A stretch of DNA of 42,560 nucleotides from Spirochaetaceae bacterium (lineage in GTDB: Bacteria > Spirochaetota > Spirochaetia > DSM-27196 > SLST01), in assembly GCA_007118855.1 (NCBI GenBank), contig SKQU01000042.1, positions 1 to 42,560 of the forward strand, read 5' to 3'. This document shows positions 5,042 to 30,607 of the stretch, in pieces (positions within the stretch are counted from its first letter, which is position 1; each line of letters starts with the position of its first letter). A program made the translations under genes and the position numbers. The notes under the pieces were generated by a model. It was not told where the DNA came from. It worked only from the letters and a program-made list of their open reading frames with translations, and searched no databases.

Positions 5042-5772
5042 TGGCAAGGCTGACCACGACACGCATTTCTGTCACCCTCGTGCTCATGTTCCTGCCGGCG
5101 TTCCTGCTCGCGCACCCGCTGTGGGGCGAGGCGGTCGGCGCGCTACAGGAGAGCGAGGGGCTCGTGCCCGGATCGATGTCGATGCGTTTCGACCAGTACA
5201 ACGGACGCGGGGACCTCATCTCGAGCGACGAGACGCTGGTGCGGCTCTGGATCGATGCAAACGGAGAGGTACAGAGCACGATTGTCCTGGCGCGAAGCAA
5301 TGGCGAGGACGTCACCGAACAGCGACGCGGCGACCCCGGAGCGGGATCGCGGATGTTCGGGCCCGGAGCCGGCGACGATGGTGACGGGTCACCGTTCGCT
5401 TCGCTGCAACGCAGTCCCTTCGCGGTCGAGGAACAGCCCCGGGTGACGATCATCGCTGTGGGGCCTGCGCAGTCGCTGGACGGGCGTACGGTGCTTCCGC
5501 TGGAGTTCGAGCATCGCACCGCACCGGATGTCCTGAGCCGCGGAACCGCCTGGCTCGACGCGGAGAGCGGCACACCGGTACGGCTCGAGTCCACCTTCGA
5601 GCCGCTTCCACGGTTTGTGAGTACGCTGCGTATGGTCCAGCACTATGCTCGAGACAACGACGGCAACCTCATCGTCGAGCGACTGGAGTTCAGCGGCGAC
5701 GGAAGATTTCTCCTGTTTCGGCGTCGGCTTGAAAGCGTATTGTTTTTCTCAGAGTATTTCCGCTTGCCCTGA
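5038..5772 (+). CDS. hypothetical exported protein (LolA-like/outer-membrane lipoprotein-sorting-like beta protein)
   Basis: overlaps upstream stop (GTGATG), signal-peptide-like N-terminus, beta-rich periplasmic-type sequence. Confidence 0.65.
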   Translation: MMARLTTTRISVTLVLMFLPAFLLAHPLWGEAVGALQESEGLVPGSMSMRFDQYNGRGDLISSDETLVRLWIDANGEVQSTIVLARSNGEDVTEQRRGDPGAGSRMFGPGAGDDGDGSPFASLQRSPFAVEEQPRVTIIAVGPAQSLDGRTVLPLEFEHRTAPDVLSRGTAWLDAESGTPVRLESTFEPLPRFVSTLRMVQHYARDNDGNLIVERLEFSGDGRFLLFRRRLESVLFFSEYFRLP

Positions 5773-5795
5773 GCAGGCGCTATACTGAGCCCGCG

Positions 5796-6353
5796 GTGAA
5801 TACGAGTAGAATCTATCTGGTGGGGATGAAGCATACCGGCAAGAGCCGCCATGGGTGTACTCTGGCCGACGGGCTTCGCAGAGACTTCTGCGATACGGAC
5901 ACGATCATCCGGGAGATCGATGAGGCGCAGCACGGCAGTCGCAGGACGGTACGCGACATCTATCTCGAAGACGGCGCCGAACGGTTCCGTCAGCTCGAGA
6001 CGGCGGCGTGCCGTCTGATCGCCGCGAGAGAGGAGCCACTGGTGGTGGCAACCGGAGGCGGGCTGTGCGACAATCAGGAGGCGCTCGAGTCGACACGAGG
6101 GTACCTCCTGGTTCATATCGTCGATACCTACGAGGCGATCGCCGAGCGCGTGTTCACCCGGGGAATCCCGGCGTTTCTGCGAACGAAAGACGAGCGGATC
6201 GCTCGCGAACGGTTCCGCGAGTTGTACGACCGGCGCATCGGCATCTACGACTCGATCGCGCACCTTCGCGTCGAGATCAACGGAAGGCCTCTGCGCTCGG
6301 CAGGCGCACTCGTTGCCGCAACCATCACGGAGTACCTGAATGGCAGGCAGTAG
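5796..6353 (+). CDS. aroK: shikimate kinase (GTG start)
   Basis: Walker A GMKHTGKS, FCDTD, VVATGGGL, followed directly by aroC. Confidence 0.88.
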   Translation: MNTSRIYLVGMKHTGKSRHGCTLADGLRRDFCDTDTIIREIDEAQHGSRRTVRDIYLEDGAERFRQLETAACRLIAAREEPLVVATGGGLCDNQEALESTRGYLLVHIVDTYEAIAERVFTRGIPAFLRTKDERIARERFRELYDRRIGIYDSIAHLRVEINGRPLRSAGALVAATITEYLNGRQ

Positions 6354-7395
6354 CTTTGGACACGTGTTTCGGCTCACGACATTCGGCGAGTCCCACGGTG
6401 GGGCGGTCGGTGTCGTCGTGGACGGCGTGACCCCGGGACTCGAGATCTCGGAACAGGACATCCAGACGCAGCTCGACCGCCGCAAGCCGGGGCAGAGCTT
6501 CATAACCACTCCGCGCAAGGAGCCGGACACGGTCAGGATCCTCTCCGGCATCTTTGAAGGTCGGACCACCGGAACGCCGGTGATGCTCATCCTCTACAAT
6601 TCCGACGCCGATCCGTCAGCGTACGACGGCATCAAGGGCATGTTCCGGCCCGGACACGCGGACTTCACCTATCTGAGGAAGTACGGCATCCGCGACTACC
6701 GCGGCAGCGGCCGCGCAAGCGGGAGAGAAACCGCCGGAAGAGTCGCGGCCGGCGCGATCGCGCGCAAGCTGCTCGCGCGTCGCGGCGTCGAGGTGCTCGC
6801 CTATACGGTGCGCGCGGCCGGTATTCAGTGCGAACAATTCGTCCCGGATCAGATCGAACACAACATGCTTCGGGCCTGCGATCCGGACGCAGCAACACGG
6901 ATGATGGAACGTATCGCCGGGATTCGCGACCGCGAAGACAGCGTGGGAGGCATCGTCGAGTGCCGCGTTCGCGGAGTCGACCCGGGCCTTGGAGAGCCGG
7001 TCTTCGACAAGCTCGACGCGCATCTGGCGCACGCAATGCTGAGCGTGGGTGCGGTGAAGGGAATCGAGTTCGGCGCTGGATTCGCTGCCGCAGACATGAC
7101 CGGCAGCGAACACAACGACCAGATGCGCGCAGGCGGGTTCGTCACGAACAACGCCGGCGGGATCATCGGCGGGATATCCACCGGGACGGAGATTGTTTTC
7201 AGAGTCGCGGTCAAACCGGTGAGCTCTATCGCGCGCCCCCAGAAAACCGTTGATCTCGACGGCGCCGAGCAGACAATCCGAACCGAAGGCCGGCACGACA
7301 CATGCATCTGTCCGCGGCTCGTACCGGTCATAGAGGCCATGGCCTGCCTCGTGATCGAGGATCACTACAAGCGGCAGGCGGCCCTTCTCGCGTGA
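6340..7395 (+). CDS. aroC: chorismate synthase
   Basis: FRLTTFGESHGGAVGVVVDG, RPGHADFTYLRKYGIRDYRGSGRASGRETAGRVAAGAIA, NNAGGIIGGISTG. Confidence 0.97.
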   Translation: MAGSSFGHVFRLTTFGESHGGAVGVVVDGVTPGLEISEQDIQTQLDRRKPGQSFITTPRKEPDTVRILSGIFEGRTTGTPVMLILYNSDADPSAYDGIKGMFRPGHADFTYLRKYGIRDYRGSGRASGRETAGRVAAGAIARKLLARRGVEVLAYTVRAAGIQCEQFVPDQIEHNMLRACDPDAATRMMERIAGIRDREDSVGGIVECRVRGVDPGLGEPVFDKLDAHLAHAMLSVGAVKGIEFGAGFAAADMTGSEHNDQMRAGGFVTNNAGGIIGGISTGTEIVFRVAVKPVSSIARPQKTVDLDGAEQTIRTEGRHDTCICPRLVPVIEAMACLVIEDHYKRQAALLA

Positions 7396-7397
7396 GC

Positions 7398-7559
7398 TTA
7401 CTCTTCCGGAGAGAAGTCCTCTTTCAACGCTCCGCACATCGGACATACCCAGTCGTCAGGGATGTCCTGGAACGAGGTACCGGGCTCGATGCCGTTATCC
7501 GGATCGCCCTCCTCAGGATCATAGATATAGCCGCACACGTTGCATACGTACTTCTGCAT
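7398..7559 (-). CDS. rubredoxin
   Basis: 53 aa [61 protein letters not shown] upstream of ATG (CAT at 7557-7559). Confidence 0.95.
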
Positions 7560-7616
7560 TCCCAACTCCTTCGAATTCGGCATTGCCTTGTGGATTTCTC
7601 CCTAATGTAGTCAAAA

Positions 7617-8498
7617 TCATGCCGAGCGTGTGCGCTCGAGCGGCGGTTTTCCGACCGACTCCTGCGTGCCGCCAAGGACCAGCCACCTGTGCTCATCGAC
7701 CAGCGGATGGATGCCCGGACGGGTGAGGCAGAAGTCGAAGCGCACCGGGTCGCGCGGGTCGATTGCGCGCAGTGCCCCGGTTATCTCTCGAGCGACGCGG
7801 AGATTCGCCTGCGCACGGGAGGTCAGACCGAGCGCGCGCGCAACCCTCAGGAGGTGGGTATCCACCGGCACGAGCAGGGAGGCGGGCTCGAGGCAGGTCC
7901 AGCCGCCCGGATCGATCGCATCGCGGCGAACCATCCACCTCAGGTAGAGCATCAACCGTTTGCACGCACTCTGCCTTCCCGGCCGCGGCAGGAGAATCGA
8001 CTCTGAGAGCTTCCCTCCTGAGGCGGCCACGACCGCGTCCACGAGCCCGGTGAGACCGGCGATCACCGCATCGCAGCGGTCGCCGGCCTGCCCGAGGGCC
8101 CTGCCCGTGGAGGCGAGCCGGAAACACGCCTCCACAGATCCGTGATCACGCATCACGCCGCGCAGCCCGACGAGCAGCCCCCGGAGCTGTTCGGCGTCGA
8201 AGAACCGGTACCGGAACCCCTCGCAGCAGGTCCGGAGCTCGCGCGCGCTCGCGTGCGTGACGACATCCGCCGGCGTTCCACCCGAGGCCCCGAGCCGGGC
8301 CGCCACCTCGCGGGCGGCCCCCACGATCCCGTCGACTCTGCCGATCGCCAGGCTCGAAGCGATCAGCCCGACCACCTCACGGTCGCGAACCGTCGAGTAC
8401 CGGCGCACAACCTCGAGCGGATCGGGTGAGAGGTAGCGCAGGTGATGATACTGCAGATAGGCTCGCTCGCAGAAGCGCCTCACTGCCTCCGCGTGCAT
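7617..8498 (-). CDS. TIGR02757/DUF2400 family protein
   Basis: MHAEAVRRFCERAYLQYHHLRYLSPDPLEVVRRYSTVRDREVVGLIASSLAIGRVDGIV...CKRLMLYLRWMVRRDAIDPGGW; longer ORF trimmed to ATG at 8498. Confidence 0.85.
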   Translation of the reverse strand: MHAEAVRRFCERAYLQYHHLRYLSPDPLEVVRRYSTVRDREVVGLIASSLAIGRVDGIVGAAREVAARLGASGGTPADVVTHASARELRTCCEGFRYRFFDAEQLRGLLVGLRGVMRDHGSVEACFRLASTGRALGQAGDRCDAVIAGLTGLVDAVVAASGGKLSESILLPRPGRQSACKRLMLYLRWMVRRDAIDPGGWTCLEPASLLVPVDTHLLRVARALGLTSRAQANLRVAREITGALRAIDPRDPVRFDFCLTRPGIHPLVDEHRWLVLGGTQESVGKPPLERTRSA

Positions 8499-9028
8499 CA
8501 CCGCCGCCTGCCACGCGCGAGATGGGCCACGATCAGCGCGACTCCCATGCCTACGAGCAGCGTCGGCCACCAGACGCCCACGAAGGCCGCAAAGTCGGTG
8601 GTTACCAGATTCAGCGAGAAGGGCAGGAAGAGCATCGAAAGGAGGATCATGGCCGCCGCGGGAATGGTAAACGTCACCCGCGCCGCGCCGTGCTTGCGCA
8701 GTCCGTACGAGAGGAGCGCCACCCCGATCACGGTCATGAACACCGGCCAGACGCGGGAGAGCTCGACGACGACAACGGTGCCGGTCAGAAGCAGAAGAAG
8801 GCCGGTCAGAAGCAGACTCGTGCCGAAGAAGACGTAGTAGTCCGGGCCCGAGTGGAACACCCGGTAGTAGAGCAGCACCAGGCCGGTCAGAAGCGGAAGC
8901 AGCGGCCAGAGTGCGAGCAGCCCGGGCAGCCGTCCGGAGGTCCGCAACAGCAGCACCCCGCCGGCGATGACGAGCATGACCCCCAGAACGGCGAGCTTGT
9001 TCGGAAATCGGGGATGACGTCGATCCAT
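8498..9028 (-). CDS. small multi-pass membrane protein of unknown function
   Basis: MDRRHPRFPNKLAVLGVMLVIAGGVLLL... several hydrophobic helices; start at 9028 preferred over ORF-track start. Confidence 0.65.
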   Translation of the reverse strand: MDRRHPRFPNKLAVLGVMLVIAGGVLLLRTSGRLPGLLALWPLLPLLTGLVLLYYRVFHSGPDYYVFFGTSLLLTGLLLLLTGTVVVVELSRVWPVFMTVIGVALLSYGLRKHGAARVTFTIPAAAMILLSMLFLPFSLNLVTTDFAAFVGVWWPTLLVGMGVALIVAHLARGRRR

Positions 9029-9034
9029 GACGCA

Positions 9035-9085
9035 ATAGTAGCCGGTTTGCCGCCGGTTGCCAACGAACACTCCGGCTGCTATACT
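9035..9085. promoter_or_regulatory. divergent promoter pair with overlapping -35 boxes (plus: TTGCCA-17-TATACT; minus: TTGGCA-17-TACTAT)
   Basis: plus -35 9057-9062, -10 9080-9085; minus -35 9063-9058, -10 9040-9035; both spacers 17 nt. Confidence 0.6.
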
Positions 9086-9095
9086 CCGGCCGACG

Positions 9096-10139
9096 ATGAG
9101 TCTCAGAACGCTGTTTTTCGCTTCCTTGGTCGTGGCGATCGCGGTCACCGGTTGCTCGAATATTGATGACTACTACCTTGCAGGCTCTTCAGACCCGGAA
9201 GTACGTGAGCTGTACCGGCTCGTGGCCACGGAGGATGATCCGCAGGTCCGCGCCGTAGCGATCGAACGCCTCGCGGGATTCCTGCTGATCGAGTCCGGGC
9301 CGCAACCGCTGATCGCGTACCTCACGAACTACGTCGAGAGAAACCCGAAGGACAAGTACGGCGGCCTGTACCTCTACATTGTCGCGCAGAGCTACCTGGA
9401 AACGGGAGCCCATGCGCTCGCCCGCTACTACTACGAGCGCGTCGTCACGGGGTACTCGGATGTGCGCTCAAACGGGATCTCGCTGCGAAAGGCTGCGCTC
9501 GAGCAACTCGTCCGGCTGAGCCCGGATCCGGAGGATCGTGTCGTCCACTATCGCACGCTGCTCGCCGAGTACGGAGACGAGGTCGACCGGGGTCTGCTCC
9601 ACTACCGTCTGGCCGAGAACCTGGCGCTCCTCGGCGAATGGGACGAGGTCTACAGGACGTACCGGCAGGTATTGCGGCATCCGGAACTCGAGGTCCCCGG
9701 CAGGCCGGATGCATATCGCCGGGTTCGCGAGCGCGTGGACTTCTACGACAGCCGCAAGAACTGGACGTTACCGACGGTGGAGGACCTTCGACGCACGATC
9801 ACCTGGGCGCTGGTGAACCGCGACACAGCCACGCTGACGCGCTACCAGGCCGGGGTCAACTTCTTCACCCGCAGTTGGGAACAGGACTTCGACGATCCGA
9901 ATACCATGCCGATCTGGAACCTGGGCGCCATTCTGCGTCTCACGCCGCGCACGCTGAGCATCGACCGGGAGGTCGACATGAACGCGGAGGGCACGGAAGC
10001 CTATCTCTGGACGTACGGATGGGGCGGCCTGCGTATTCGCACGTGGTACCTCTACTTCCGGCGGGTGCATTTCCCGCCTGATCCGGATATCCACGGAACA
10101 TGGGAGTGGGCCGGCGTCTATCTGGGAGAACGCCTGTAG
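9096..10139 (+). CDS. lipoprotein, TPR/HEAT-like repeat hypothetical protein
   Basis: MSLRTLFFASLVVAIAVTGC lipobox; repeated helical pairs; start trimmed to 9096. Confidence 0.8.
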   Translation: MSLRTLFFASLVVAIAVTGCSNIDDYYLAGSSDPEVRELYRLVATEDDPQVRAVAIERLAGFLLIESGPQPLIAYLTNYVERNPKDKYGGLYLYIVAQSYLETGAHALARYYYERVVTGYSDVRSNGISLRKAALEQLVRLSPDPEDRVVHYRTLLAEYGDEVDRGLLHYRLAENLALLGEWDEVYRTYRQVLRHPELEVPGRPDAYRRVRERVDFYDSRKNWTLPTVEDLRRTITWALVNRDTATLTRYQAGVNFFTRSWEQDFDDPNTMPIWNLGAILRLTPRTLSIDREVDMNAEGTEAYLWTYGWGGLRIRTWYLYFRRVHFPPDPDIHGTWEWAGVYLGERL

Positions 10140-10207
10140 GCCTTCCGGCCGACCGGCACCGACCGGCGCCTCCTAATGTGAAGCTTCCGGCCGCCGAGAA
10201 TAGAAAG

Positions 10208-11080
10208 GTGGGATACCCGATCGGTCTGCGGATCATCCTGACAACGCTTTTCCTCGTTTGCCTGGCCGCAGGTGCGGCCGGGAATCCGGATCCCCGGGAT
10301 ACGGTCACGAGCGAGATCGACTGGGGCACGGGCACGATGCTCGTCACGATCGAGCGCTCGCTCAACGCCGCGGGCGCGACCGGACCCGCCGCCGTCTCGA
10401 GGACCCAGCGGGCAATTCGGCGAGACGCTGCGCAGATCCTCTTCGACGTGCTCCTGGACGTACGACTCGACTCGCTGCATACGGTCGGCTCTCTCATCGG
10501 TGAACGCGAAGATCTCGTCTTCCGGCTCGAACGCGCCGCAGGCTCCGCCACTCCGATCGACGCGAGCGCGACGCGCGACCTCTCGGCCGCCCGGGTTACG
10601 TTCTCCGTCGACCTTCACAGGGGCCTCGCCCGGCAGTTCGTGTTCCACTCCCGGGCGGCTTCCATTGAGTCGAGACTCGGATGGATTGCCCATACCGACT
10701 ACACCGGCATACTCATCCATGCCGCCGGCGAGCTTCCGCTGTTCGGCACGAACACCACGGCTCGCCTGGAACCGGCGCTCTTTCCCGCGGTACACTACCT
10801 GCGTGGACCGGAGAACCTGCTCTACCGCCTCGCCACAGCGGAGCACATGGACCCGGACCTGCTCGGCTCCAAGGGAGCGGCGGCGTACACGAACGACCCG
10901 CAGGCGGCGGGTCACGCCGATCGCGTGGGCACTCGTCCCTTGCGGATCCTCGCCGCAGGCACTTTCGGCACCGCTGCGACCGACATCGTCATCACCGAAC
11001 AGGACGCCCTCCAGATCATGGCCTCCGCGCACAACCGTTCGCTGCTCCGCGACGGCAAGCTGGTGATCGTGATCGACTGA
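10208..11080 (+). CDS. exported hypothetical protein (GTG start)
   Basis: signal peptide MGYPIGLRIILTTLFLVCLAAGAAG; continuous ORF to 11080; start site uncertain. Confidence 0.65.
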   Translation: MGYPIGLRIILTTLFLVCLAAGAAGNPDPRDTVTSEIDWGTGTMLVTIERSLNAAGATGPAAVSRTQRAIRRDAAQILFDVLLDVRLDSLHTVGSLIGEREDLVFRLERAAGSATPIDASATRDLSAARVTFSVDLHRGLARQFVFHSRAASIESRLGWIAHTDYTGILIHAAGELPLFGTNTTARLEPALFPAVHYLRGPENLLYRLATAEHMDPDLLGSKGAAAYTNDPQAAGHADRVGTRPLRILAAGTFGTAATDIVITEQDALQIMASAHNRSLLRDGKLVIVID

Positions 11081-11143
11081 GTAGCGTGTCGGACAGTTGA
11101 CTTTGCGATACCGTTGTGGTGAATTCAGCGGACGGAGTCCCGG

Positions 11144-12475
11144 ATGCCCGCTTCATCACACGGCCGCGGTTGCAGTGCCGTCTCACGAATATCGCTCCTG
11201 TTCCTCGTTCTCTCCGCCGCCCTGTGGGGCTGCGGGGACCGGCCCCTGGGGACCGGGGTGGTGCTGTGGTCACCGGATGAGTCGCTCCTGCGGTCGGCCT
11301 CCGTCGTATCCGTGCTCTCGCAGTCGGAAATCACCGACACCTACCGCGTTTCCGCCGACGAACTCGCCGAGCCTCTGGATATCGAGCGATGGCGGGTCGA
11401 GCTCCACGACGACGCAGACAGAGCCCGCACGCGCGCATCCGAGTTCGCATCCGCGCTCGAGGGAAACCCGTCGCTTCATGCCCGGGCGACACGTAGCGCG
11501 CTTCCCGTTCGATCCGAACCGCGTGCTGCCGCCGGCAACACGATCTACCGGCTGCGGGAGAACGAAGAGGTCAAACTGATCGGGCGGCAGCCGGAAGAGA
11601 CCGATCTCGAGGGGCTCGTTTCCTACTGGTACGAGGCGATGACCGCGACCGGGGAGCGGGGATGGGTGTTCGGCTACACCCTGCGTCTGTTCGACCCAAC
11701 CGACGATACGGTCGTCGTCGAGACCGGCAGGGGTGCTGATCCGCTCATCGACCTCCTTCTGCAGAACGTGTGGCGACCGGTGTACTACCTCGACATGATC
11801 GCAAGCCGTGCCTTCGACCTTGAGTTGTTCCGACCCGAGTTCGGCCTCTTCCCCCAGCCGGAGAACAGACAACTCGAGCTCGTGCTGCCCTACCACGCCA
11901 CGATCTTCGAGTACGAACAGATCGCCCCGGCGGGGTCGCGCCGGTACGTCGCCGAGGGCACATCGCTTCAGATCACCTTCCAGCGCAACGACGAGTTGAA
12001 CCTGCGCTACACCCTGGAAGGGCGGCAGTATATCCTCGCGATGCAGCGCGTGCCGGGAGACATAGAGCAGTTCATCGAGAATGAGATCGAGCGCAGGAGC
12101 GCCGTCTACGAGCGCCTGCTCGAACGGGGTCCGGAGCTCGGAAGCGACGCGTACGGGTCTCTCACGCTGATGCCGAACCAGCAGTTTGCCTGGACGGGGT
12201 TCCAGCGGCTCGTTCCGACCGCGATCGGCCCGCAGGCTTTGTCTACCGGCCGGATCGACATGGGTCTCTATCTGAGCTCCGCGCTGCGCCGCGACTACGA
12301 CGGAGCGCTCGCCTTCCGGTTCGACGGTGAACAGACGCCGGCGAGCTTCGTCTACCAGCTGCTCGAAGGTGGCATCCGATTCGTCTGGGTTGCGCCGCAG
12401 AACATCCGCGATCGCATCGTCCAGAGCGTCGGCGTCTCCCCGCTTACGGTCTTCATGTCGGCGGTCACAGAATAG
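11144..12475 (+). CDS. SH3-like-domain lipoprotein
   Basis: lipobox LSAALWGC; SH3b-like NTIYRLRENEEVKLIG...YWYEAMTATGERGWVFGYTLRLF. Confidence 0.82.
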   Translation: MPASSHGRGCSAVSRISLLFLVLSAALWGCGDRPLGTGVVLWSPDESLLRSASVVSVLSQSEITDTYRVSADELAEPLDIERWRVELHDDADRARTRASEFASALEGNPSLHARATRSALPVRSEPRAAAGNTIYRLRENEEVKLIGRQPEETDLEGLVSYWYEAMTATGERGWVFGYTLRLFDPTDDTVVVETGRGADPLIDLLLQNVWRPVYYLDMIASRAFDLELFRPEFGLFPQPENRQLELVLPYHATIFEYEQIAPAGSRRYVAEGTSLQITFQRNDELNLRYTLEGRQYILAMQRVPGDIEQFIENEIERRSAVYERLLERGPELGSDAYGSLTLMPNQQFAWTGFQRLVPTAIGPQALSTGRIDMGLYLSSALRRDYDGALAFRFDGEQTPASFVYQLLEGGIRFVWVAPQNIRDRIVQSVGVSPLTVFMSAVTE

Positions 12476-14530
12476 ATGGCCCACATCCAGGCCGGCGACA
12501 TCAGCCTCGCCTATGGGGACCGCGACATTCTCAAAGGCGTGAATCTGACCCTGACCTCCGGAGACCGCTGCGCACTTGCGGGCGCCAATGGAAGCGGCAA
12601 ATCGACGCTGATGCGGATCCTCGCCCTGGAGCTGCCCCCGGATTCGGGATCGGTCGTCGCAACCACCGGGGCCCGGATCGTCTACCTTCCCCAGTCGGGG
12701 ATCACACACGCGGGACAGACCCTTGACGAGGAGATCGAGCTCGCCTACGGGCCCATCGCCGCGCTCCTCGCGAAGCGCGACCACATAGCCGAGCAGATGC
12801 AGGCCCCCGACCGGTCTGCGCCCGATCTTGACGCGCTCGTGCACGAGCACCATGAGATACAGGAACGCATAGAGCGCAGCGGCTACTACGACCGCGACGC
12901 GCAGATCGACCGGATACTCAGCGGTCTGGGATTCGCCCGGTCGGACCGGAGCAGAGGGGTCGACGAGTTTTCCGGAGGCTGGCAGATGCGAATCGCGCTG
13001 GCCAAGGTGCTGCTCTCCGGGCCGGATTTCCTCCTGCTCGATGAGCCGACCAACTACCTCGACGTCGAAGCGCGAGTGTGGCTCGGGAGCTTCCTCTCCT
13101 CGTATGCCGGGGGTGTCCTCATCGTCAGCCACGATCGTCGATTCCTGGATCAGACGATAGACACCGTGTGGGAGCTCTTTCTCGCGGAAGTCAGGCGCTA
13201 CCGGGGCTCCTACAGCGACTACGAGCGGCAACGGGAGGAGGAGATTGCCCGTCTGACCGCCGCGTGGGAACAGCAGCAGGAGGAGATCCGGAGGATCGAG
13301 GACTTCATCCGTCGCTTCCGTGCCAAAGCGTCCAAGGCGCGACAGGTTCAGAGCCGTATCAAACAGCTTGAGAAGATGGAGCCGATCGTCATTCCGGAGC
13401 ATCTGAAGCGCATCTCGATCGCCTTTCCCCCCGCGCCGCGCTCCGGCCGCGAGGTCGTGACCCTCGAGTCGGTGTCTCGCCGCTACGGAACGAACCGTGT
13501 CCTTGAAGACGTCGACCTCATCGTCGAGCGAGGAGAGAAGGTCGCACTCGTCGGCCCGAACGGCGCCGGGAAGTCGACGCTGATGCGGATCATCGCCGGC
13601 ACCGACTCAGCACACGGCGGCACGGTCCGATTCGGCGCGCAGGCTGCAACGGGTTTCTACGCCGACGACGACAGCTGGCTTGCCGGCGTCGGGGAGGCAG
13701 TCGGGGCGGCCGGCTCACCGGCCCGAGGTGCTTCCGGCGCGGCGGCTTCGGTGTTCGAGGTCACGATAAGGTCCGCACACGGTCAGACTGAACAGCAGAT
13801 CCGAAACATGCTCGGCGCGTTTCTTTTTCGTGACGACGACGTGTACAAGTCGATCGACGTCCTCTCCGGCGGAGAGCGAAGCCGGCTCGCCATGCTCCAG
13901 TTGCTGCTGCAGCCGCACAATCTGCTCGTACTTGACGAGCCGACCAACCATCTCGACATGGCGAGCAAGGACGTACTCCTTGACGCTCTGCGGCAGTTCA
14001 AGGGGACCATCGTCTTCGTCAGCCATGACCGCGAGTTCATCGAGAAGCTCGCAGGACGCGTCATCGAGCTGCGCCCCGACCCGCGAGACCCCGGCGCGCC
14101 GTCGCTCGTCTCCGACTTCCCCGGCGATTACCACTACTACGCGTGGCGACTCGAGCATCAGGGAGAGACGGTGGAGAGCGGGCCGACGCGTGCCGGAGGC
14201 GGCTCGCATCTGCCCGGGCCGGACGGATCGGACGGGTCCAACGGAGGAGGACCACCGGAGGTATCGCACGGCGAACAGAAAGCGCGGCGCAGCCGACGCC
14301 GGCAGCTCGAGCGTCGGGTGGAGACGCTTCTGGAGCAGATTGCTTTCGAGGAGCAACGCCACGAGACACTGCAGCGTGAACTCGCCGACCCGAGTGTCTA
14401 CGGCGACGGGGCCGAAGTGAAGAGACGGACCGCCGAGCTGAAGCGTATAGAGGCGAGGATCGACGAGTTCACCCGCGAGTGGGAGTCCGCCGCGACGGAG
14501 CTCGAGTCGCAGGCCGTCGCCGGTGGCTGA
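12476..14530 (+). CDS. ABC-F family ATP-binding cassette protein
   Basis: two NBDs (GANGSGKST, GPNGAGKST), LSGGERSRLAML, LLDEPTNYLD and VLDEPTNHLD, C-terminal coiled coil. Confidence 0.95.
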   Translation: MAHIQAGDISLAYGDRDILKGVNLTLTSGDRCALAGANGSGKSTLMRILALELPPDSGSVVATTGARIVYLPQSGITHAGQTLDEEIELAYGPIAALLAKRDHIAEQMQAPDRSAPDLDALVHEHHEIQERIERSGYYDRDAQIDRILSGLGFARSDRSRGVDEFSGGWQMRIALAKVLLSGPDFLLLDEPTNYLDVEARVWLGSFLSSYAGGVLIVSHDRRFLDQTIDTVWELFLAEVRRYRGSYSDYERQREEEIARLTAAWEQQQEEIRRIEDFIRRFRAKASKARQVQSRIKQLEKMEPIVIPEHLKRISIAFPPAPRSGREVVTLESVSRRYGTNRVLEDVDLIVERGEKVALVGPNGAGKSTLMRIIAGTDSAHGGTVRFGAQAATGFYADDDSWLAGVGEAVGAAGSPARGASGAAASVFEVTIRSAHGQTEQQIRNMLGAFLFRDDDVYKSIDVLSGGERSRLAMLQLLLQPHNLLVLDEPTNHLDMASKDVLLDALRQFKGTIVFVSHDREFIEKLAGRVIELRPDPRDPGAPSLVSDFPGDYHYYAWRLEHQGETVESGPTRAGGGSHLPGPDGSDGSNGGGPPEVSHGEQKARRSRRRQLERRVETLLEQIAFEEQRHETLQRELADPSVYGDGAEVKRRTAELKRIEARIDEFTREWESAATELESQAVAGG

Positions 14531-16091
14531 GTCGCGCGGCAGAAACCGGCGCTTCCGTGAGCTTCGCCGGCTCCTCCCCGACGTTCAACCGACGCAGCCG
14601 GGCACGTACGAGCGCGATCAGGGAATCTTCTCGCTTGCCCCCGCAGCCGTCATCCGGCCCACTGAGGAAGAGCAGATCGCGAGCGCCCTTCGCGCCGCCT
14701 CACAGATGGGCATTCCCCTCGTCGCCCGCGCAGGGGGCAGCAACACCGGCGGCGCCGCAATCACCACCGGCATACTCATGCTCTTCGACCAGCAGCCTTT
14801 CAGCCGGATGACGCTCGACGAAGAACACGGTCGGCTGTGCTGCGGCGCGGCCGTGCGCCACGACCGGGTTCAGGAGGCGTTCGGGCGAATCGGGTTTCAC
14901 CTGCCCTCTGATCCTTCGAGCGGTCCGCTCTCCCGTCTGGCGGGCAACATAAACACACGGGCGAGCGGACCCCACGCGCTTCGCCACGGCGCGATCAACC
15001 GGTACGTCCGCGAAGTCAGGTTCATCACCGCCGACGGTACGGTGATCGATACGCGCCGACCTGCACAGGTACCGCGCCGTCTCATCGACGAGCTCCGCGC
15101 GCTTGCCGGAACAATCGCAGCCGACGACCGGGTGAGGGCCCGGCTCGAGGCGCGGCGTGACGTCAAGTGGGCCTCCGGATACGAGCTACTCGCTCTCCTT
15201 GACCACGCCGACGATCCGGTCCGCGCGCTGCCGCGTCTTCTGACCGGGAGCGTCGGGACGCTCGGTATCGTGACCGAAGCCGAGCTCCAGGGACTCCCCC
15301 GAGAAGAAGGCCGCGCCGCGGTGCTCCTGCGCTTCGAGGGCGACGGCGAGGCGTGCGCGGCGGCCCTCGACCTTCGAAGCGAGGCTCAGGCGGTTGAGCT
15401 CGTCTCCTGCACGACGCTCGAGCTCCTGCACGAGCGCATGCCCGCCCTGCGCGGCGCGAGCGCGGGGACCCTCCTCATCGTCGAGTACGCCGGGGCCGAG
15501 GCGACCACGAAGGCACGCCACGCCGCAGACCGGCTCTCGACGGCCCGCGGATTACGGTCGCACGAGATCGCCACCGACGAGCAGAGCATCGCGGCGATCT
15601 GGAAGGAGCGCAAGGCGCTCCTTCCGCTGGTGCGCAGCCTGACCGGGATCGTCGGCGTGCCGTACTCGGTCGTCAACGACGTGGGGGTCGATCCCCCTCG
15701 CCTGCCGGAGCTCCTCGAAGGCGCCGAACGCGTTCTCGCCCGCCACGGCCTTCGATCAGCGGTCTATGGGCACGCCGGAAGCGGAAATCTCCATCTGCGG
15801 CCGTTCTTCGCTCCGGGTGATGAGAAGACGGTGCGAGCGGTCGCCGAGGAGATCTATACCCTCGTGGGGACGCTCGGGGGTACGGTCACCGCGGAGCACG
15901 GAATGGGGCGCCTGCGCTCACCGTTTCTCGAGCTGGAGTGGGGTGCGCAGATCGTCGGCTTGATGCGGAACCTCAAGCATATCTTTGACCCGGATGATGT
16001 CCTGAACCCCGACACTCTGTTCGTCCCCCGGGGCCACCGGTTCAGCACGAGCGGATGGCCGACGCCGCCTTCGCTTTCCGGCTCAGGATAA
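14523..16091 (+). CDS. FAD-linked oxidase (GlcD/D-lactate dehydrogenase-like), GTG start
   Basis: PLVARAGGSNTGGAAITTGI FAD-binding PP-loop; C-terminal AEHGMGRLRSPFLE. Confidence 0.92.
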   Translation: MAESRGRNRRFRELRRLLPDVQPTQPGTYERDQGIFSLAPAAVIRPTEEEQIASALRAASQMGIPLVARAGGSNTGGAAITTGILMLFDQQPFSRMTLDEEHGRLCCGAAVRHDRVQEAFGRIGFHLPSDPSSGPLSRLAGNINTRASGPHALRHGAINRYVREVRFITADGTVIDTRRPAQVPRRLIDELRALAGTIAADDRVRARLEARRDVKWASGYELLALLDHADDPVRALPRLLTGSVGTLGIVTEAELQGLPREEGRAAVLLRFEGDGEACAAALDLRSEAQAVELVSCTTLELLHERMPALRGASAGTLLIVEYAGAEATTKARHAADRLSTARGLRSHEIATDEQSIAAIWKERKALLPLVRSLTGIVGVPYSVVNDVGVDPPRLPELLEGAERVLARHGLRSAVYGHAGSGNLHLRPFFAPGDEKTVRAVAEEIYTLVGTLGGTVTAEHGMGRLRSPFLELEWGAQIVGLMRNLKHIFDPDDVLNPDTLFVPRGHRFSTSGWPTPPSLSGSG

Positions 16092-22270: not shown

Positions 22271-23362
22271 ATGGCGGATACCTACATTGTGGCGGAGATC
22301 GGCACGGCTCATGCGGGCGATCTCACTCTGGCAACGGAGCTCATTGACGCGGCGCGCGAAGCGGGGGCGGACTGCGCAAAGTTCCAGTACGTGATCGCGG
22401 ACGAGATCGTCCATCCTGCAACAGGCGCCGTCACGCTTCCCGGTGGGCCTACGCCCCTCTACGAGCGATTCCGCGCGATCGAGCAGCCGCCTTCCTTCTA
22501 CGAGCACTTGATGACAGCCTGCAGTTCGGCGGGCATCGACTTCCTGTGCACACCGTTCGGGACCGCGAGCGCTCGCGCGCTCAAGGAGATGGGCCCGTCG
22601 GCGCTGAAGATCGCCTCGCCGGAGCTCAACCACACCGACCTGCTGCGCGAGGTCGCCGGCTATGGCCTGCCGCTCATCATCAGTAGCGGCGTATCACAGC
22701 TCTGCGACATTGAGTACGCCCTGTCCCTGACCGGTCGAGAGCGGGTGACGCTCCTGCACTGCATAACCGCCTATCCGGCGCCCGAGGAGGAGTACAACCT
22801 GCGCCTCATTCCCGCGCTTCACCGCATCTTCGGGGTCCCCGTCGGCCTCTCGGATCACAGCGGTGACCCGCAGCTCGTCCCTGGACTGGCCGCGGCACTC
22901 GGCGCGACCGTTGTGGAGAAGCACATCACCCTCTCGCGGGACGGAACGGGACTCGACGATCCGATCGCGCTCGAGCCGGCCATGTTCACCCGCATGGCGG
23001 CAGCCGTGCGGCGCGTCGACGCGATACGTTCGCTCGATCCGCATGAGGGGTCGAAGAAGGTGATTGGTGAGTTCAAAGCGGAGTACGGAGCCTCCCGCGT
23101 AGAAGCCGTTCTCGGCACCGGGATTAAGCGTCTCGCGGCGCGCGAAGCGGGCTCCTACCGAACCACGCGTCGGTCCCTGCTTGCAGTCCGGGATCTTCCG
23201 GCCGGTCGCGTGCTGGAAGCGGCGGACGTCGCGCCGCTGCGCTCGGAAACACTCACTCCGGGCCTGGAACCGAGGTTCGCGCAGACGGTGACGGGGGCGC
23301 GGCTTCACAGGCCGCTCGCCTCAGGCGAGGGTCTGCGGTGGGAACACCTGCTCAGCCGGTAG
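22271..23362 (+). CDS. N-acetylneuraminate/pseudaminate synthase-like (NeuB/SpsE) with C-terminal SAF domain
   Basis: [70 protein letters not shown]-terminal SAF-like. Confidence 0.92.
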
Positions 23363-26075
23363 CGGACCCTTCTGAGAGGAACCGGCGCAGGACCGCCTGC
23401 AGGATGCCTCCGTTGCGGTAGTAGTCGATCTCCACGGGCGTGTCGAGCCGGCAGATCGCGGTGAAGTCGACCTTGCGCCCGTCTTCACCGGTGGCGACAA
23501 CCTGCACCACTACTCCGGGACGAACCTGTTCGTCAATGGCGACCGCATACGCCTCGCGTCCGCTGAGCCCAAGGCTCGCGGCGTTCTGCCCCGACATGAA
23601 CTGAAGCGGCAGCACACCCATACCCACGAGATTGCTGCGATGGATGCGCTCGTAGCTCTCGGCGATGGCGGCCCGGACCCCAAGCAGGTAGGTCCCCTTC
23701 GCGGCCCAGTCCCGGCTCGAGCCCATTCCGTAGTCCTTGCCGCCGAGGATGATCGTGGGAACGCCCTCCTGCGCGTAGCGCAGGCTCGCGCTGTGGATGT
23801 CCATCCGGTCGCCGCTGGGAAAGTGGGTCGTGACGCTGCCTTCGGTGCCCGGCGCCACGAGGTTGCGGAACCGGATGTTTGCAAAGGTTCCCCGGGTCAT
23901 GACCCGATCGTTGCCGCGTCGACTGCCGTAGCTGTTGAACTCTTCGACCCCAACGCCCTGCTCGAGCAGGTATCTTCCGGCCGGACTCGCCGGGTCTATG
24001 GGACCCGCGGGACTGATGTGGTCGGTGGTCGTGCTGTCGCCGGCCATGACGAGGACGCGGGCGTTCTCGATCGCTGATATGGGCTCCACGTCCATCTTCA
24101 TGTCCGTGAAGAAGGGCGGCTCCTGGATATAGGTGCTCGACTCACGCCAGGGGTAGATCTCGCTCGCGGAGAGCGAGATCGCATTCCACTGGGGGTTGGA
24201 GGACTCGAGGCCGCCGTAGCTCTCGATGAAGGCTTCCCGGTCGAGCGCCTTCCTCACGTACGCGGCGAGCTCCTCGTCCTCCGGCCAGATGTCCGAGAGG
24301 TAGACGGGCGTTCCATCGGCCCCGGTTCCCAGAGGATCCTTCGTCAGGTCGACATCAACGGTCCCGGCGAGCGCGTACGCGACAACGAGCGGCGGCGAGG
24401 CGAGGAAGTTTGCCTTGACGTGAGGATTGATGCGGCCCTCGAAATTGCGGTTCCCGGAGAGCACACCGGCCACGACGAGATCGCCCTCCTCGATCCCCTT
24501 CGCGATGTTGGGCGGGATCGGACCGCTGTTCCCGATGCACGTGGTGCAGCCGTACCCGACGAGGTAGAACCCGAGCTTCTCAAGGTACGGCATCAGCCCG
24601 GCGCGGACGAGATACTCGGTGACCACCATGCTTCCCGGCGCGAAACTCGTCTTCACCCACGGCTTCGAGGCGAGTCCGGCTTCCACGGCTCGCTTCGCGA
24701 GGAGTCCGGCCCCCATCAGGACGGCCGGATTCGAGGTATTCGTGCAACTCGTGATCGCGGCGATGACCACGTCACCGTGAGTCAGCGGCCCGCGCATCCC
24801 GTCGTTGTACTCGACCTCCTCTCGTCTGTCCGCTTCCTCGTCGCCGAGCGCGAACCCGCGGTTCTCGACCGGCGCGCGAAGCATCGTCTTCCAGTTCTCT
24901 TTGAGCTCGCGGATCGCAACCCGATCCTGGGGCCGCTTGGGACCCGCCATACTCGGCTCAACCGACGACAGATCGATCTCAACGATTTCCTGGAACTCCG
25001 GGTCGTCCGAGTTGTCGGTGCGAAAGACCCCCTGTTCCTTGGTGTACCGCTCGACGAGATCGATGAGCTCCTCCGGGCGACCGGTTGCGTAGAGATACTG
25101 CAGCGTCTGATCATCGACCGGGAAGTAGCCGACGGTCGCGCCGTACTCCGGGGCCATATTGGAGATCGTCGCGCGATCGGGCACCGTCATCGTGGAGAGC
25201 CCGGTTCCGAAGAACTCGACGAATCTGCCCACCACGCCATGCGCGCGCAGCGTCTGGGTCACGACGAGCACGAGATCCGTTGCGGTCACGCCGGGATCGA
25301 GCTTGCCGGTGAGCTTCACGCCGACGACACCGGGGGCGAGCATGTAGACGGGCTGACCGAGCATCGCCGCCTCGGCCTCGATGCCGCCGACCCCCCATCC
25401 GACAACCCCAACGCCGTTGATCATCGGTGTGTGACTGTCGGTTCCGACGAGCGAATCAAAGTAGGCGATCCGTCTGCCGTCTATATCACGCGACTGAACG
25501 ACCGGAGCGAGGTATTCGAGGTTGACCTGGTGACAGATGCCGCTCGCGGGGGGAACCACGTCGAAGTTGCGCAGCGCGCCCTGTCCCCAGCGCAGGAACT
25601 CATATCGCTCCTGGTTGCGGGCGAACTCGATCTCGGCGTTCTGCTTGAGCGCGTCCGGGCTGTTGAACACGTCGACCTGCACCGAATGGTCGATTACGAG
25701 GTTCACCGGCAGCTGCGGGTTTATCTTCGCAGGGTCTCCTCCCAGCCGTGCCATCGCCGACCGCATGGCCGCGAGATCTACAACACACGGCACTCCGGTG
25801 AAGTCCTGCAGCAGAACACGCGAGGGACTGAACGGGATCTCGAGCTCACCGGGGTGGTGCGGATCATAGCCGCAGAAGAGCGCCACATGGTCGTCGGTGA
25901 TCTCCTTCCCGTTCACGCCCCGGACGACCGACTCGGCGAGCACCCTGATAGACACCGGCATTCGCGCGAGACCGCCGAATCCGGCCTCCTCGAGTCTGCG
26001 GAGGCTGTAGTAATCCACCCGGCCTTGCCCACTCTGGAAGGAATCGATAACGTCATACCTGCTGGAATCGCTCAT
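23352..26075 (-). CDS. acnA: aconitate hydratase
   Basis: [67 protein letters not shown]; start trimmed to [13 protein letters not shown]. Confidence 0.97.
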
Positions 26076-26091
26076 GGACACCCTCGCGCAG

Positions 26092-26140
26092 AATATAGCC
26101 GGTCGCCAAGGTGACTTCAAGTCGGCCCGCGTGGTATAGT
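26092..26140. promoter_or_regulatory. divergent promoter region acnA / E1-lipoyl-KAS III
   Basis: minus strand TTGAAG (26120-26115)-17-TATATT (26097-26092); plus strand GTGACT (26111-26116)-18-TATAGT (26135-26140). Confidence 0.5.
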
Positions 26141-26182
26141 TTACACAGAATATGATCAGTTTGGTCAGCGAAGGAGAGACCG

Positions 26183-29100
26183 ATGGCCCAGACGCTTGCA
26201 GGAACGCAGACCCGCACCATGGCACTCTACCAATACATGGTCACATCACGCGAATTGGATCGTATAGAGGAAGAGTACACCGGACGTGGGGAGGCATTCT
26301 TTCACGTCTCGGGAGCGGGTCACGAAGGGAGCGTCATGCTCCACCCGCACCTGACCGCGGACGACTGGCTGCACTGCCACTACCGTGACAAGGCGTTGAT
26401 GCTCGCCCGCGGCATCTCCCCCGAGATGTTCTTCCTGAGCCTGTTCAACAAGGCCGGCTCCCACTCACGGGGGCGGCAGATGAACGCCCACATGAGCGCC
26501 CCTGAGCTGAAGATTCTCAGCCTCGTTGGCCCCGTGGGAAACTCGGGGCTTCAGGCAGCCGGGGTCGCGAGCGTCGTGAAGGACCAGGCCGGATCACCGC
26601 TGGTGCTCTGTTCGCTCGGCGACGGGATGACCCAGCAGGGGGAGATACTCGAGGCGATCGCCCACTGCGTTCGGGACCGGCTGCCGGTTCTCTTCCTGAT
26701 CCAGGACAATGCGTTCGCGATTTCCACGAGGACGCTCGAACGCACCTTCTACTCGACCCCTTCGGGAGCAAGCGAGGATTTCTACACGGTACCCATCCGA
26801 CGCATCGACGGTCGCGATCCGTCGGGCTGCTACGATGCGTTCGGCGAGCTCGTCGCATGCATCCGCAAGACCCGCGGCCCGGCAATCGCCGTCATGAGCG
26901 TGGACCGGCTCAGCAACCATACCAACGCCGATGACCAGCGGATGTACCGAACCCCGCAGGAGATCGAGCATATCCGGTCGACCGGAGACCCGCTTCTGGC
27001 GATGCGTCGGCGTCTGGAGGACTCGGGCGTCGAGCCTTCGGAGCTCGACGACCTGCGTGACACCGTGGAAGCCGAGTTGCGGGAGATGGCCCGACGGGCG
27101 CAACGCAGCGAGGAGCCTGAGCCCACGACCACCGCGGTCAGACCGCTTCCTTCGCGACTGCAGGACCGCGCGGCGGAGTACACAGGCGGACAGGGTGAGG
27201 GCGAGCTCACGATGCTCGAAGCGATCCGGGAGGTCCTTCGCGCCCGGCTCGGATCGGACGAACGCGTACAGCTGTTCGGCGAGGACCTCGAGGACCCCAA
27301 GGGCGACGTTTTCGGCATCACCCGCGGACTCACCCGGCAGTTTCCGGGCCGGGTCGTCAACTCCCCGCTCGCGGAAGCGACGATCATCGGGGTATCCGTC
27401 GGCCAGGCGCTCGCCGGCAAGCGCCCGGTCGCCTTCCTCCAGTTCGCGGACTTCCTGCCCATCGCCTACAACCAGATCTTCGCCGAGCTCGGCAGCATGT
27501 ACTGGCGCACCGACGGGGGCTGGCAGGCTCCGGTCATCGTCATGGTGACCTGCGGCGGCTACCGGCCGGGGCTCGGGCCCTTTCATGCATCGAGCATGGA
27601 GGGCGTCGCCGCACACACGCCGGGCATCGACGTCTTCATGCCGTCCACCGCCGGCGAGGCGGCCGGACTGCTCAACGCGGCCTTCGAGAGCGAACGCCCG
27701 ACGATCTTCTTCTATCCCAAGAACTGCCTGAACGATCGCTCTGCCGTCACCACGACGGACGTCACGCGTCATCTCGTCCCGATCGGTACCGCCCGCACGG
27801 TCCGTGCGGGCGAGCACATCACGCTCGTCGGCTGGGGCAACACCGTGCGGCTGTGCAGGCAGGCCGCCGAGGCTCTCGCGTCGGTCGATATCTCGGCTGA
27901 AGTCGTCGACCTTCGAAGCCTCGTTCCCTGGGATGTCGACCGCGTCACCGAATCCGTCGCAAGAACCCGGCGGCTCGTCGTAGTCCATGAGGACAACCAC
28001 ACGGGTGGGATGGGAGCCGAAGTCGTCGCGACGGTGAGCGAACGACTCTCCGGCGCCGTGGTCGCGCGCAGGGTAACGCGCGGCGACACCTACGTTCCCT
28101 GCAACTTCGCCAACCAGCTCGAGGTGCTCCCCTCGTACCGTCGCGTTCTTGAAACCTGCGTCGACATCCTCGGCGGGAGCGTCGCATGGAAACTCCCCGA
28201 AGACTCGGTGAGCGGCATCCGCACGGTGGAAGCCATCGGTGCGAGCCCGTCCGACGAGTCGGTAACGGTCATCGCCTGGCATATTGAGACCGGACGCGAG
28301 ATCGCCGAAGGTCAGCTCGTGGCGGAGCTCGAGGCAGACAAGGCCGCCTTCGACTTCAAGAGCCCGATCGGGGGGACGGTGGAAGCCCTCCTGTGCGAAG
28401 AGGGCGACACGGTCACCGTGGGTTCGCCGCTCTTCAACGTGCGGACCGCTGAAGGAGAGGTCTCGTTCACGCCCGTCACTCGCGAGGAGCCGGGAGAACC
28501 GGTGATCACCGGAATCGAGCCTGGGGGCGTCGCAAGACCGGCCGCGGGGTTCGCCGGCCCAGTGGTCGGCGCCGCCCCGGCAACCGTCCCGGGCAACGGG
28601 GCCGCAGGCCGCACGCTCGTCGCGGGACTCGCCGGCGTCGCACGGCGCGTCGGGTCGCGCCGGGTGGACAACGATGAGATCGCACGGATGTGCCCGGCAT
28701 GGAGCCCTGAAGACATCATGAAACGCACCGGCATCGAGTCACGGCAATGGATCGACGAGGGCGAAACCGCGCTCTCGATGGCCGTGGACGCTTCCAGGGA
28801 AATCCTCGAACAGCAGCAGATGACGATCGACGACATGGATCTCATTCTCTGCGCTACCGGCACGCCGCTGTACACCACTCCGTCGATGGCGACGCTCATC
28901 CACTACGAGCTGGCCGGCGACCGTGACACGGGCACGGCCGGTTACGACATCAGCGCAGCGTGTTCGGGTTACCTCTACGGCCTGCAGATCGCGTACGACT
29001 ACCTGCAGAGCAAGCCGCGGCACCGAATCCTGCTCGTCACGACCGAGGCGCTCTCCCCCAAGCTCGACACGGCGGACCCGGACACCGCTCCCATCTTCGG

Positions 29101-29575
29101 GGACGCGGCGACGGCCTCGATTCTCGTTGGAGGCGCAGACGCGCGGATCGCCGTGGCGGAGGTCTACCGCCCGTCGATCGGGGCACAGGGCGAGTCCGGC
29201 GATGCATTGAAGGTCCCGGTGTCCAACACCGAACCCATCGGCATGGACGGCCCGAAGGTGTACCAGGTAGCGGTGCGAGCGATGATCGAGATGCTGCAGA
29301 ACGCCACAGAGGAAGCCGGAATCACGATGAAGGAACTCGATCTCGTCGTCCCGCACCAGGCAAACCAGAGGATCATCAACGCGGTCCGACAGCGCATGCG
29401 CGTCCCGCCGCAGATGGTCTACAGCAATATCCGGACGCTCGGGAATACGTCGAGCTCGACCATCCCGCTGTGCCTCTCAGAGCTGATAGGCACGCGCAAG
29501 ACGGGAGAGTTGATCGGCATGACGGCGTTCGGTGGGGGCTTCACGTACGCAGGTGGTGTGCTCAAGATGAGATAG
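26183..29575 (+). CDS. fused 2-oxoacid dehydrogenase E1 alpha + E1 beta + lipoyl domain + beta-ketoacyl-ACP synthase III (FabH-like)
   Basis: E1 alpha TPP motif [32 protein letters not shown]1 beta ([32 protein letters not shown]); lipoyl [30 protein letters not shown] (Lys720); KAS III Cys927 ([12 protein letters not shown]), His1058 (VPHQANQRI), Asn1088 (GNTSSSTIP). Confidence 0.95.
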
Positions 29576-29776: not shown

Positions 29777-30607
29777 GTGCACTATCGGAACACCACGGTT
29801 GTCATCACAGGCGCCTCAAGCGGCATTGGACTCGAGTTCGCACGGTTTTTCGCGCGCGAGGGCGCCCGGCTCGTTCTCACGGGCAGGCGTGAAGCCGTTC
29901 TCGCTCAGGTTCGCAGGGAGGCACTCGATCACGGGGCGGCGAGCGTGGACCTCGTCGTGGGGGACCTCGCCCGGGCCCCGGTGGCTTCCGAGGTCGAGAC
30001 CATCGCGGCGGAGCGTGATGTCCTTGTGCTCGTCAACAATGCCGGCTTCAGCCACTACAGCGCGGTCGCCGACGCGGAAACCAGGCCGCTGCTGGACATG
30101 CTCGCCGTCCAGGCGCAGCTGCCGGTGCGGCTCTGTCACGCAGCGCTGCAACGGATGAAGCGCGAGGGCCGTGGGCTGATCATCAACGTCGGGTCGCTTG
30201 CCGGGCGCGTCGCGGTCCCGGGCTCGGCGCTCTATGTCGCCACGAAATGCTTCATTGAGCGTCTGAGCGAAACGCTGGCGCTCGAGGCGGCGCCGCACGG
30301 CGTGGTGGTCCAGGCGCTCACCCCGGGCTACGTGCGAACCGACTTCCACCGCGACGTCGAGAACTACCGGGAGAGGCGCAGGAATCGGGGTCTGATCCGC
30401 TGGATGGACGCCGACGCCGTCGTTCGCTGCAGCATGCGCGCCGCAGAACGCGCCCGAAGGCGGCTGCAGTCGCGACCCGGCCGGATTCCCCGCAGACGAG
30501 ACGTTGTGATCATCCCCGGGACGGCGAACCGCTTCCTGGCCGCGATCTCACCCTTCGTTCCCCGGACGCTCGTCTACCGCGCGGCCGCGGCGCGTCCCCG
30601 GATGTAG
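29777..30607 (+). CDS. short-chain dehydrogenase/reductase (GTG start)
   Basis: VVITGASSGIGLEFARFFAREGARLVLTGR, VNNAGFSHYS, INVGSLAG...YVATK. Confidence 0.93.
   Translation: MHYRNTTVVITGASSGIGLEFARFFAREGARLVLTGRREAVLAQVRREALDHGAASVDLVVGDLARAPVASEVETIAAERDVLVLVNNAGFSHYSAVADAETRPLLDMLAVQAQLPVRLCHAALQRMKREGRGLIINVGSLAGRVAVPGSALYVATKCFIERLSETLALEAAPHGVVVQALTPGYVRTDFHRDVENYRERRRNRGLIRWMDADAVVRCSMRAAERARRRLQSRPGRIPRRRDVVIIPGTANRFLAAISPFVPRTLVYRAAAARPRM

Follow-up and report, generated by a model that had tools for sequence, protein, structure and literature searches.

The window analysed here, a stretch of 42,560 nucleotides, is one contig (C399) of a fragmented 3.9-Mb draft genome made up of 439 contigs. 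On its forward strand lies a gene for a single polypeptide that joins both halves of a TPP-dependent E1 to a lipoyl domain and a KAS III domain (Table 1). An earlier note, made from the letters alone, had described this as one open reading frame, and both its coordinates and its strand are correct, with no internal stop.

Table 1. Features of the fusion gene and its downstream neighbour, in window positions
Feature	Position	Strand	Basis
AAGGAG, likely ribosome-binding site, 6 bases 5' of the ATG	26171..26176	+	Direct sequence reading
Whole fusion gene, 1130 aa (P0001)	26183..29575	+	Single open frame without stop; 41 full-length homologues aligned
E1-alpha domain, aa 17-314, GDG...N TPP motif intact	26231..27124	+	Pfam E1_dh 7.4e-38; motif alignment
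E1-beta domain, aa 342-646	27206..28120	+	Pfam Transket_pyr and Transketolase_C; tree, motifs
Lipoyl domain, aa 679-754 by predicted strands	28217..28444	+	Pfam Biotin_lipoyl aa 692-752; predicted structure
Lys720, expected lipoyl attachment residue	28340..28342	+	Invariant 41/41; hairpin turn in model
Linker, aa 755-813, poorly conserved	28445..28621	+	Alignment; pLDDT <50 at 782-810
KAS III domain, aa 814-1129	28622..29569	+	NCBIfam PRK09352, 260.7 bits against a cut-off of 249; fold match to FabH structures
Asp844 at the FabH Trp32 position (CoA adenine stacking), lost	28712..28714	+	KAS III alignment
Cys927, KAS III nucleophile	28961..28963	+	Invariant
Pro966 at the FabH Arg151 position (CoA adenine stacking), lost	29078..29080	+	KAS III alignment
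His1058, KAS III triad	29354..29356	+	Invariant
Asn1088, KAS III triad	29444..29446	+	Invariant where present
Short-chain dehydrogenase, possible 3-oxoacyl reductase (putative)	29777..30607	+	Pfam adh_short

Along the fusion, the Pfam families follow one another in the order E1_dh, Transket_pyr (342-516), Transketolase_C (535-646), Biotin_lipoyl and two KAS III families, namely ACP_syn_III (921-988) and its C-terminal family (1043-1128). This layout of E1 alpha, E1 beta, lipoyl domain, linker and KAS III, as the earlier note had drawn it, is borne out by Pfam, NCBIfam and AlphaFold2. The predicted structure has a mean pLDDT of 87.2 with confident domains, places Lys720 in the turn that links two strands (712-718 and 722-726), and has a stretch of the linker (782-810) that is probably disordered. 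The top Foldseek matches are FabH structures, with a Thermus branched-chain E1 beta also listed, and the KAS III domain matches Aquifex FabH (2ebd) with a TM-score of 0.94 by target length. Against the fabH model TIGR00747 this domain reaches 233.4 bits, below the cut-off of 292.1, while it exceeds the cut-off of the PRK09352 subfamily. The fusion has a KAS III fold with a Cys-His-Asn triad. The TPP and E1 motifs are intact as well, and the best solved match of the E1-alpha domain is a Thermus 2-oxoacid dehydrogenase. Compared with a 2-oxoacid dehydrogenase complex, the fusion has the TPP-dependent E1 and the lipoyl domain with its conserved lysine, and lacks both the E2 catalytic domain and the E1/E3-binding domain.

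A scan of species-representative genomes found 46 fusion loci in Spirochaetales, Planctomycetota and Facilibium, the closest relatives being Spirochaetales metagenome assemblies. The surveys covered Spirochaetota, Planctomycetota and the order of Facilibium, and within these the fusion is present in about 15 of 393, 5 of 392 and 13 of 33 genomes, respectively, with one more copy in the last order cut by a contig end; it also occurs in two further gammaproteobacteria. Counting the window copy, 41 of 47 fusion ORFs are longer than 1050 aa, the shorter ones coming from cut contigs, and all six Pfam families are matched in 41/41 members of the alignment (A1). Even though a fragmented draft genome could produce a chance fusion, the same full-length single ORF, identically arranged, recurs in dozens of independent genomes from Spirochaetales, Planctomycetota and Gammaproteobacteria, including several single-contig ones, so that an assembly error, a frameshift or a chance ORF is excluded, its probability being negligible. 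The fusion is thus genuine, as the earlier note had taken it to be. Homologues split and provided with a dedicated E2, which that note had named as an argument against its own reading, are not what the alignment contains: all 41 aligned copies are single-chain, and Pfam matched neither an E2 catalytic nor an E3-binding domain in any of them, in agreement with what had been read from the window sequence. One copy is broken, since in a single-contig spirochaete genome (L062, 7823-11315, minus strand) the fusion is split into three ORFs, either as a pseudogene or by sequencing error. As a separate observation, one gammaproteobacterial genome (L096) has a second E1-lipoyl copy without KAS III (12497-14878, minus strand) beside its complete fusion (8172-11576, minus strand).

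The residues singled out in the earlier note as catalytic proved invariant. Lys720, Cys927 and His1058 are conserved in 41/41 homologues and Asn1088 in the 40/40 having a letter at that position, and a second set of 41 members shows no variation at any of the four. A different picture emerges at the CoA-binding site. The CoA adenine is held in FabH by stacking between Trp32 and Arg151 (PMC4606726). With E. coli FabH as reference, the equivalents of both residues are absent in all 46 scorable fused KAS III domains; at position 32 nearly every copy has Asp or Glu and none has Trp, and at position 151 none has Arg. Of 14 separate KAS III proteins, taken as a control from seven fusion-bearing genomes, none lacks both. 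The Fisher value for this contrast takes no account of relatedness. Fusion copies looked at later agree with this loss. Other types of KAS III that use non-CoA donors also lose such clamp residues. FabH Arg249, which we take to be an ACP-contact residue, is retained in 48/48 fused domains, and the position of FabH Phe87 is occupied by Thr or Ser, which, judging from the alignment, may suit a larger acyl group. Since the KAS III domains of the fusions group in a single clade, the clamp was possibly lost in a single event and kept thereafter.

The origin of the fusion can be approached through its E1. The KAS III fusions group as one clade (100/99) in the E1-beta tree, and its sister clade (99/94) consists of single-chain E1-lipoyl-E2 proteins from planctomycetes and one spirochaete. 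Such E1alpha-E1beta-lipoyl-E2 proteins, of about 1030-1175 aa, were found at L057 (1647-4838, plus strand), L064 (1796-4903, minus strand) and L065-L070, and carry the E2 catalytic motif HRP[IF]NG or HRLING in the tails that were read. All but L064, which groups further out with streptomycete E1s, belong to the sister clade. Their domain order is that of the fusion, but they end in an E2-type catalytic domain where the fusion has its KAS III. Because these proteins are the nearest E1 relatives, KAS III would occupy the former place of E2, and the simplest history suggested by the tree is that it replaced E2 behind the lipoyl arm. The streptomycete fused E1s fall in the same larger group, outside the fusion clade, and their genes precede a megasynthase starting with lipoyl and E2 domains followed by PKS modules, in neighbourhoods that presumably resemble those of streptogramin producers. 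This streptogramin-type loading (L056, L090, L091) shares with the fusion a fused E1alpha-E1beta and a lipoyl arm as the source of an assembly-line starter; however, it uses two proteins, has an E2 that hands the acyl group on, and involves no KAS III.

Decarboxylation on TPP and reductive acylation of a lipoyl arm are the established chemistry of the E1/lipoyl family. In the fusion, the E1 would decarboxylate a 2-oxoacid on TPP and reductively acylate the lipoyl arm within its own chain, and this arm, held on its flexible linker, would pass the acyl group straight to Cys927 of the KAS III, so that the donor would not be free acyl-CoA. The intact triad and the retained Arg249 suggest that KAS III would then condense the acyl group with malonyl-ACP into 3-oxoacyl-ACP. 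As the earlier note remarked, no E3 gene adjoins the fusion in the window genome; this genome does, however, encode an unlinked E3 above the curated cut-off (G000:C438:698-2065), and the E3 model TIGR01350 is over its cut-off, again unlinked, in 7/7 fusion genomes tested. The dihydrolipoyl group could thus be reoxidised by the ordinary cellular E3. A lipoate synthase gene is present in the genomes tested, together with lipoate-ligase-like genes scoring below the curated cut-off.

Direct hand-over from the lipoyl arm to Cys927 in cis, one of the options raised in the earlier note, is the best-supported reading of these sequences: the clamp is lost in the fused domains and kept in the separate ones, and E2 stands at the same place in the relatives, while the loading step itself is what we infer from both. 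On this basis, we consider it rather probable that the fusion is a self-contained chain-initiating enzyme whose arm loads KAS III in cis, with neither an E2 nor free acyl-CoA. Against it count the sharing of the clamp loss within one clade, the similar losses in other KAS III types with non-CoA donors, the absence of a regularly linked ACP, reductase or dehydratase gene, and the separate KAS III proteins of the fusion genomes. The weakest part of this reading is the substrate, and the E1 pocket residues, compared below, do not point to a particular one. If the reading holds, the chances are about even that branched-chain 2-oxoacids are used, yielding starters from which branched fatty acids or some related lipid would be built, and the one hint in this direction comes from the streptomycete fused E1s of the same larger group, which feed a lipoyl-E2-PKS. 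Whether the fusions represent a family of CoA-independent chain-initiating synthases, with the lipoyl arm as direct starter donor and serving lipid metabolism in three phyla, appears to us evenly balanced.

The earlier note had also considered that KAS III might be a mere substitute for E2, one that takes the acyl group off the lipoyl arm and transfers it, uncondensed, onto ACP or CoA. Such a role would agree with the position of KAS III, which is that of E2 in the related chains, and with the dnacin cluster, where a KAS III (DinQ, a NapE homologue) has been put forward as the enzyme that charges an ACP with an acyl unit beside NapB/NapD-like enzymes (PMC7570522). The complete and invariant Cys-His-Asn condensing triad of the fusion makes this less likely, and we regard it as improbable. 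In acyltransferases of the KAS III type, CerJ and ChlB3 among them, the Asn has been lost.

Two further explanations are more doubtful still. In one of them, E1 and KAS III would act on separate substrates, the E1-lipoyl part working with an E2 in trans to produce acyl-CoA that KAS III then uses, and the fusion would serve proximity only. A conventional E1/E2/E3 gene set at C438 of the window genome could supply that E2, but both CoA-stacking residues are gone, an E1/E3-binding domain is present in none of the 41 members scanned, and Facilibium has the fusion with no other E1 of the alpha-beta type at E<=1e-15; we give this explanation little credence. In the other, a ketose phosphate would be the donor, which is how NapB/NapD and QncN/QncL work; the arm would then carry a glycolyl group, for KAS III to extend or load onto ACP. 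The Nap and Qnc systems do combine a related E1 with a lipoyl arm and an ACP and dispense with CoA (PMC6335953), a KAS III gene is present in related clusters (PMC7570522), and the E1 substrate pocket of the fusion has an unusual Lys or Arg, compared with His in the Thermus enzyme and Ala in human BCKDH. However, the E1 motifs are like those of 2-oxoacid enzymes, as is the Thermus match of E1-alpha, and the nearest fused E1s among plasmids, those of streptomycetes, belong to a streptogramin-like cluster, for which one would expect a branched starter; a ketose donor is accordingly a slim prospect.

In terms of known systems, the fusion has in common with the branched-chain 2-oxoacid dehydrogenase and FabH the E1 chemistry, the lipoyl arm, the class of KAS III and the kind of product expected. 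Whereas there E1, E2, E3 and FabH are normally separate, with free acyl-CoA between them, the fusion is one chain with no E2 and with a KAS III deprived of its adenine clamp. The glycolyl-ACP platforms NapB/NapD/NapC/NapE and QncN/QncL/QncM resemble it, as described, in their TPP enzyme, their lipoyl arm and their CoA-free delivery to ACP, and in the KAS III gene of the Nap/Din clusters. They differ in consisting of separate proteins with an E2-type acyltransferase (QncL), a ketose donor and a dedicated ACP, encoded in secondary-metabolite clusters, the fusion having KAS III after the lipoyl domain. That transfer from a TPP enzyme to a carrier protein can run over a lipoyl arm without CoA is already known, from QncN/QncL/QncM (PMC6335953). 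As to the architecture, which the earlier note did not recognise as standard, the open-licence literature, itself an incomplete body, yielded no description of a KAS III standing fused where E2 would be, nor any fatty-acid phenotype for relatives of Facilibium. We know of no ketosynthase that is loaded straight from a lipoyl arm. If the preferred reading is true, 2-oxoacid decarboxylation would be coupled to chain initiation in one polypeptide that bypasses both E2 and acyl-CoA, a compact route to branched starters from amino-acid-derived 2-oxoacids. The residue comparison predicts no need for acyl-CoA and a strict dependence on Lys720, and one purified protein suffices for testing both.

The neighbourhoods of the fusion show no biosynthetic cluster, the adjacent genes being mostly unrelated or housekeeping and differing between phyla. 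Across the fusion loci, linkage to an ACP, a reductase or a dehydratase is not consistent, planctomycetes and gammaproteobacteria have no neighbour conserved group-wide, and no PP-binding domain was detected among the window ORFs scanned, which included part of the ACP-sized ones. The downstream short-chain dehydrogenase of the window has its best partial NCBIfam matches to mycolate reductase and 3-hydroxybutyrate dehydrogenase, below all cut-offs shown, and a same-strand downstream homologue occurs in 12 spirochaete loci, a partial association. Spirochaete fusions are usually divergent from an AcnA aconitase. In the window, the ORF called for it (23352-26225, minus strand) overlaps the start of the fusion, and the true AcnA start probably lies further in; being a canonical AcnA, it was dropped as a clue to the substrate. 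In one complete genome (L059), leuA-like and leuB-like genes, called from their start sequences, lie directly upstream of the fusion (5681-8478, plus strand); they are absent in L104, of the same genus, and were likewise dropped as substrate evidence. Overall, this pattern names no product and agrees with a self-sufficient enzyme that supplies common lipid metabolism. Each of the fusion genomes examined also encodes separate KAS III proteins, which rules out the fusion as the sole KAS III of its genome, and it is thus not needed as the sole initiator.
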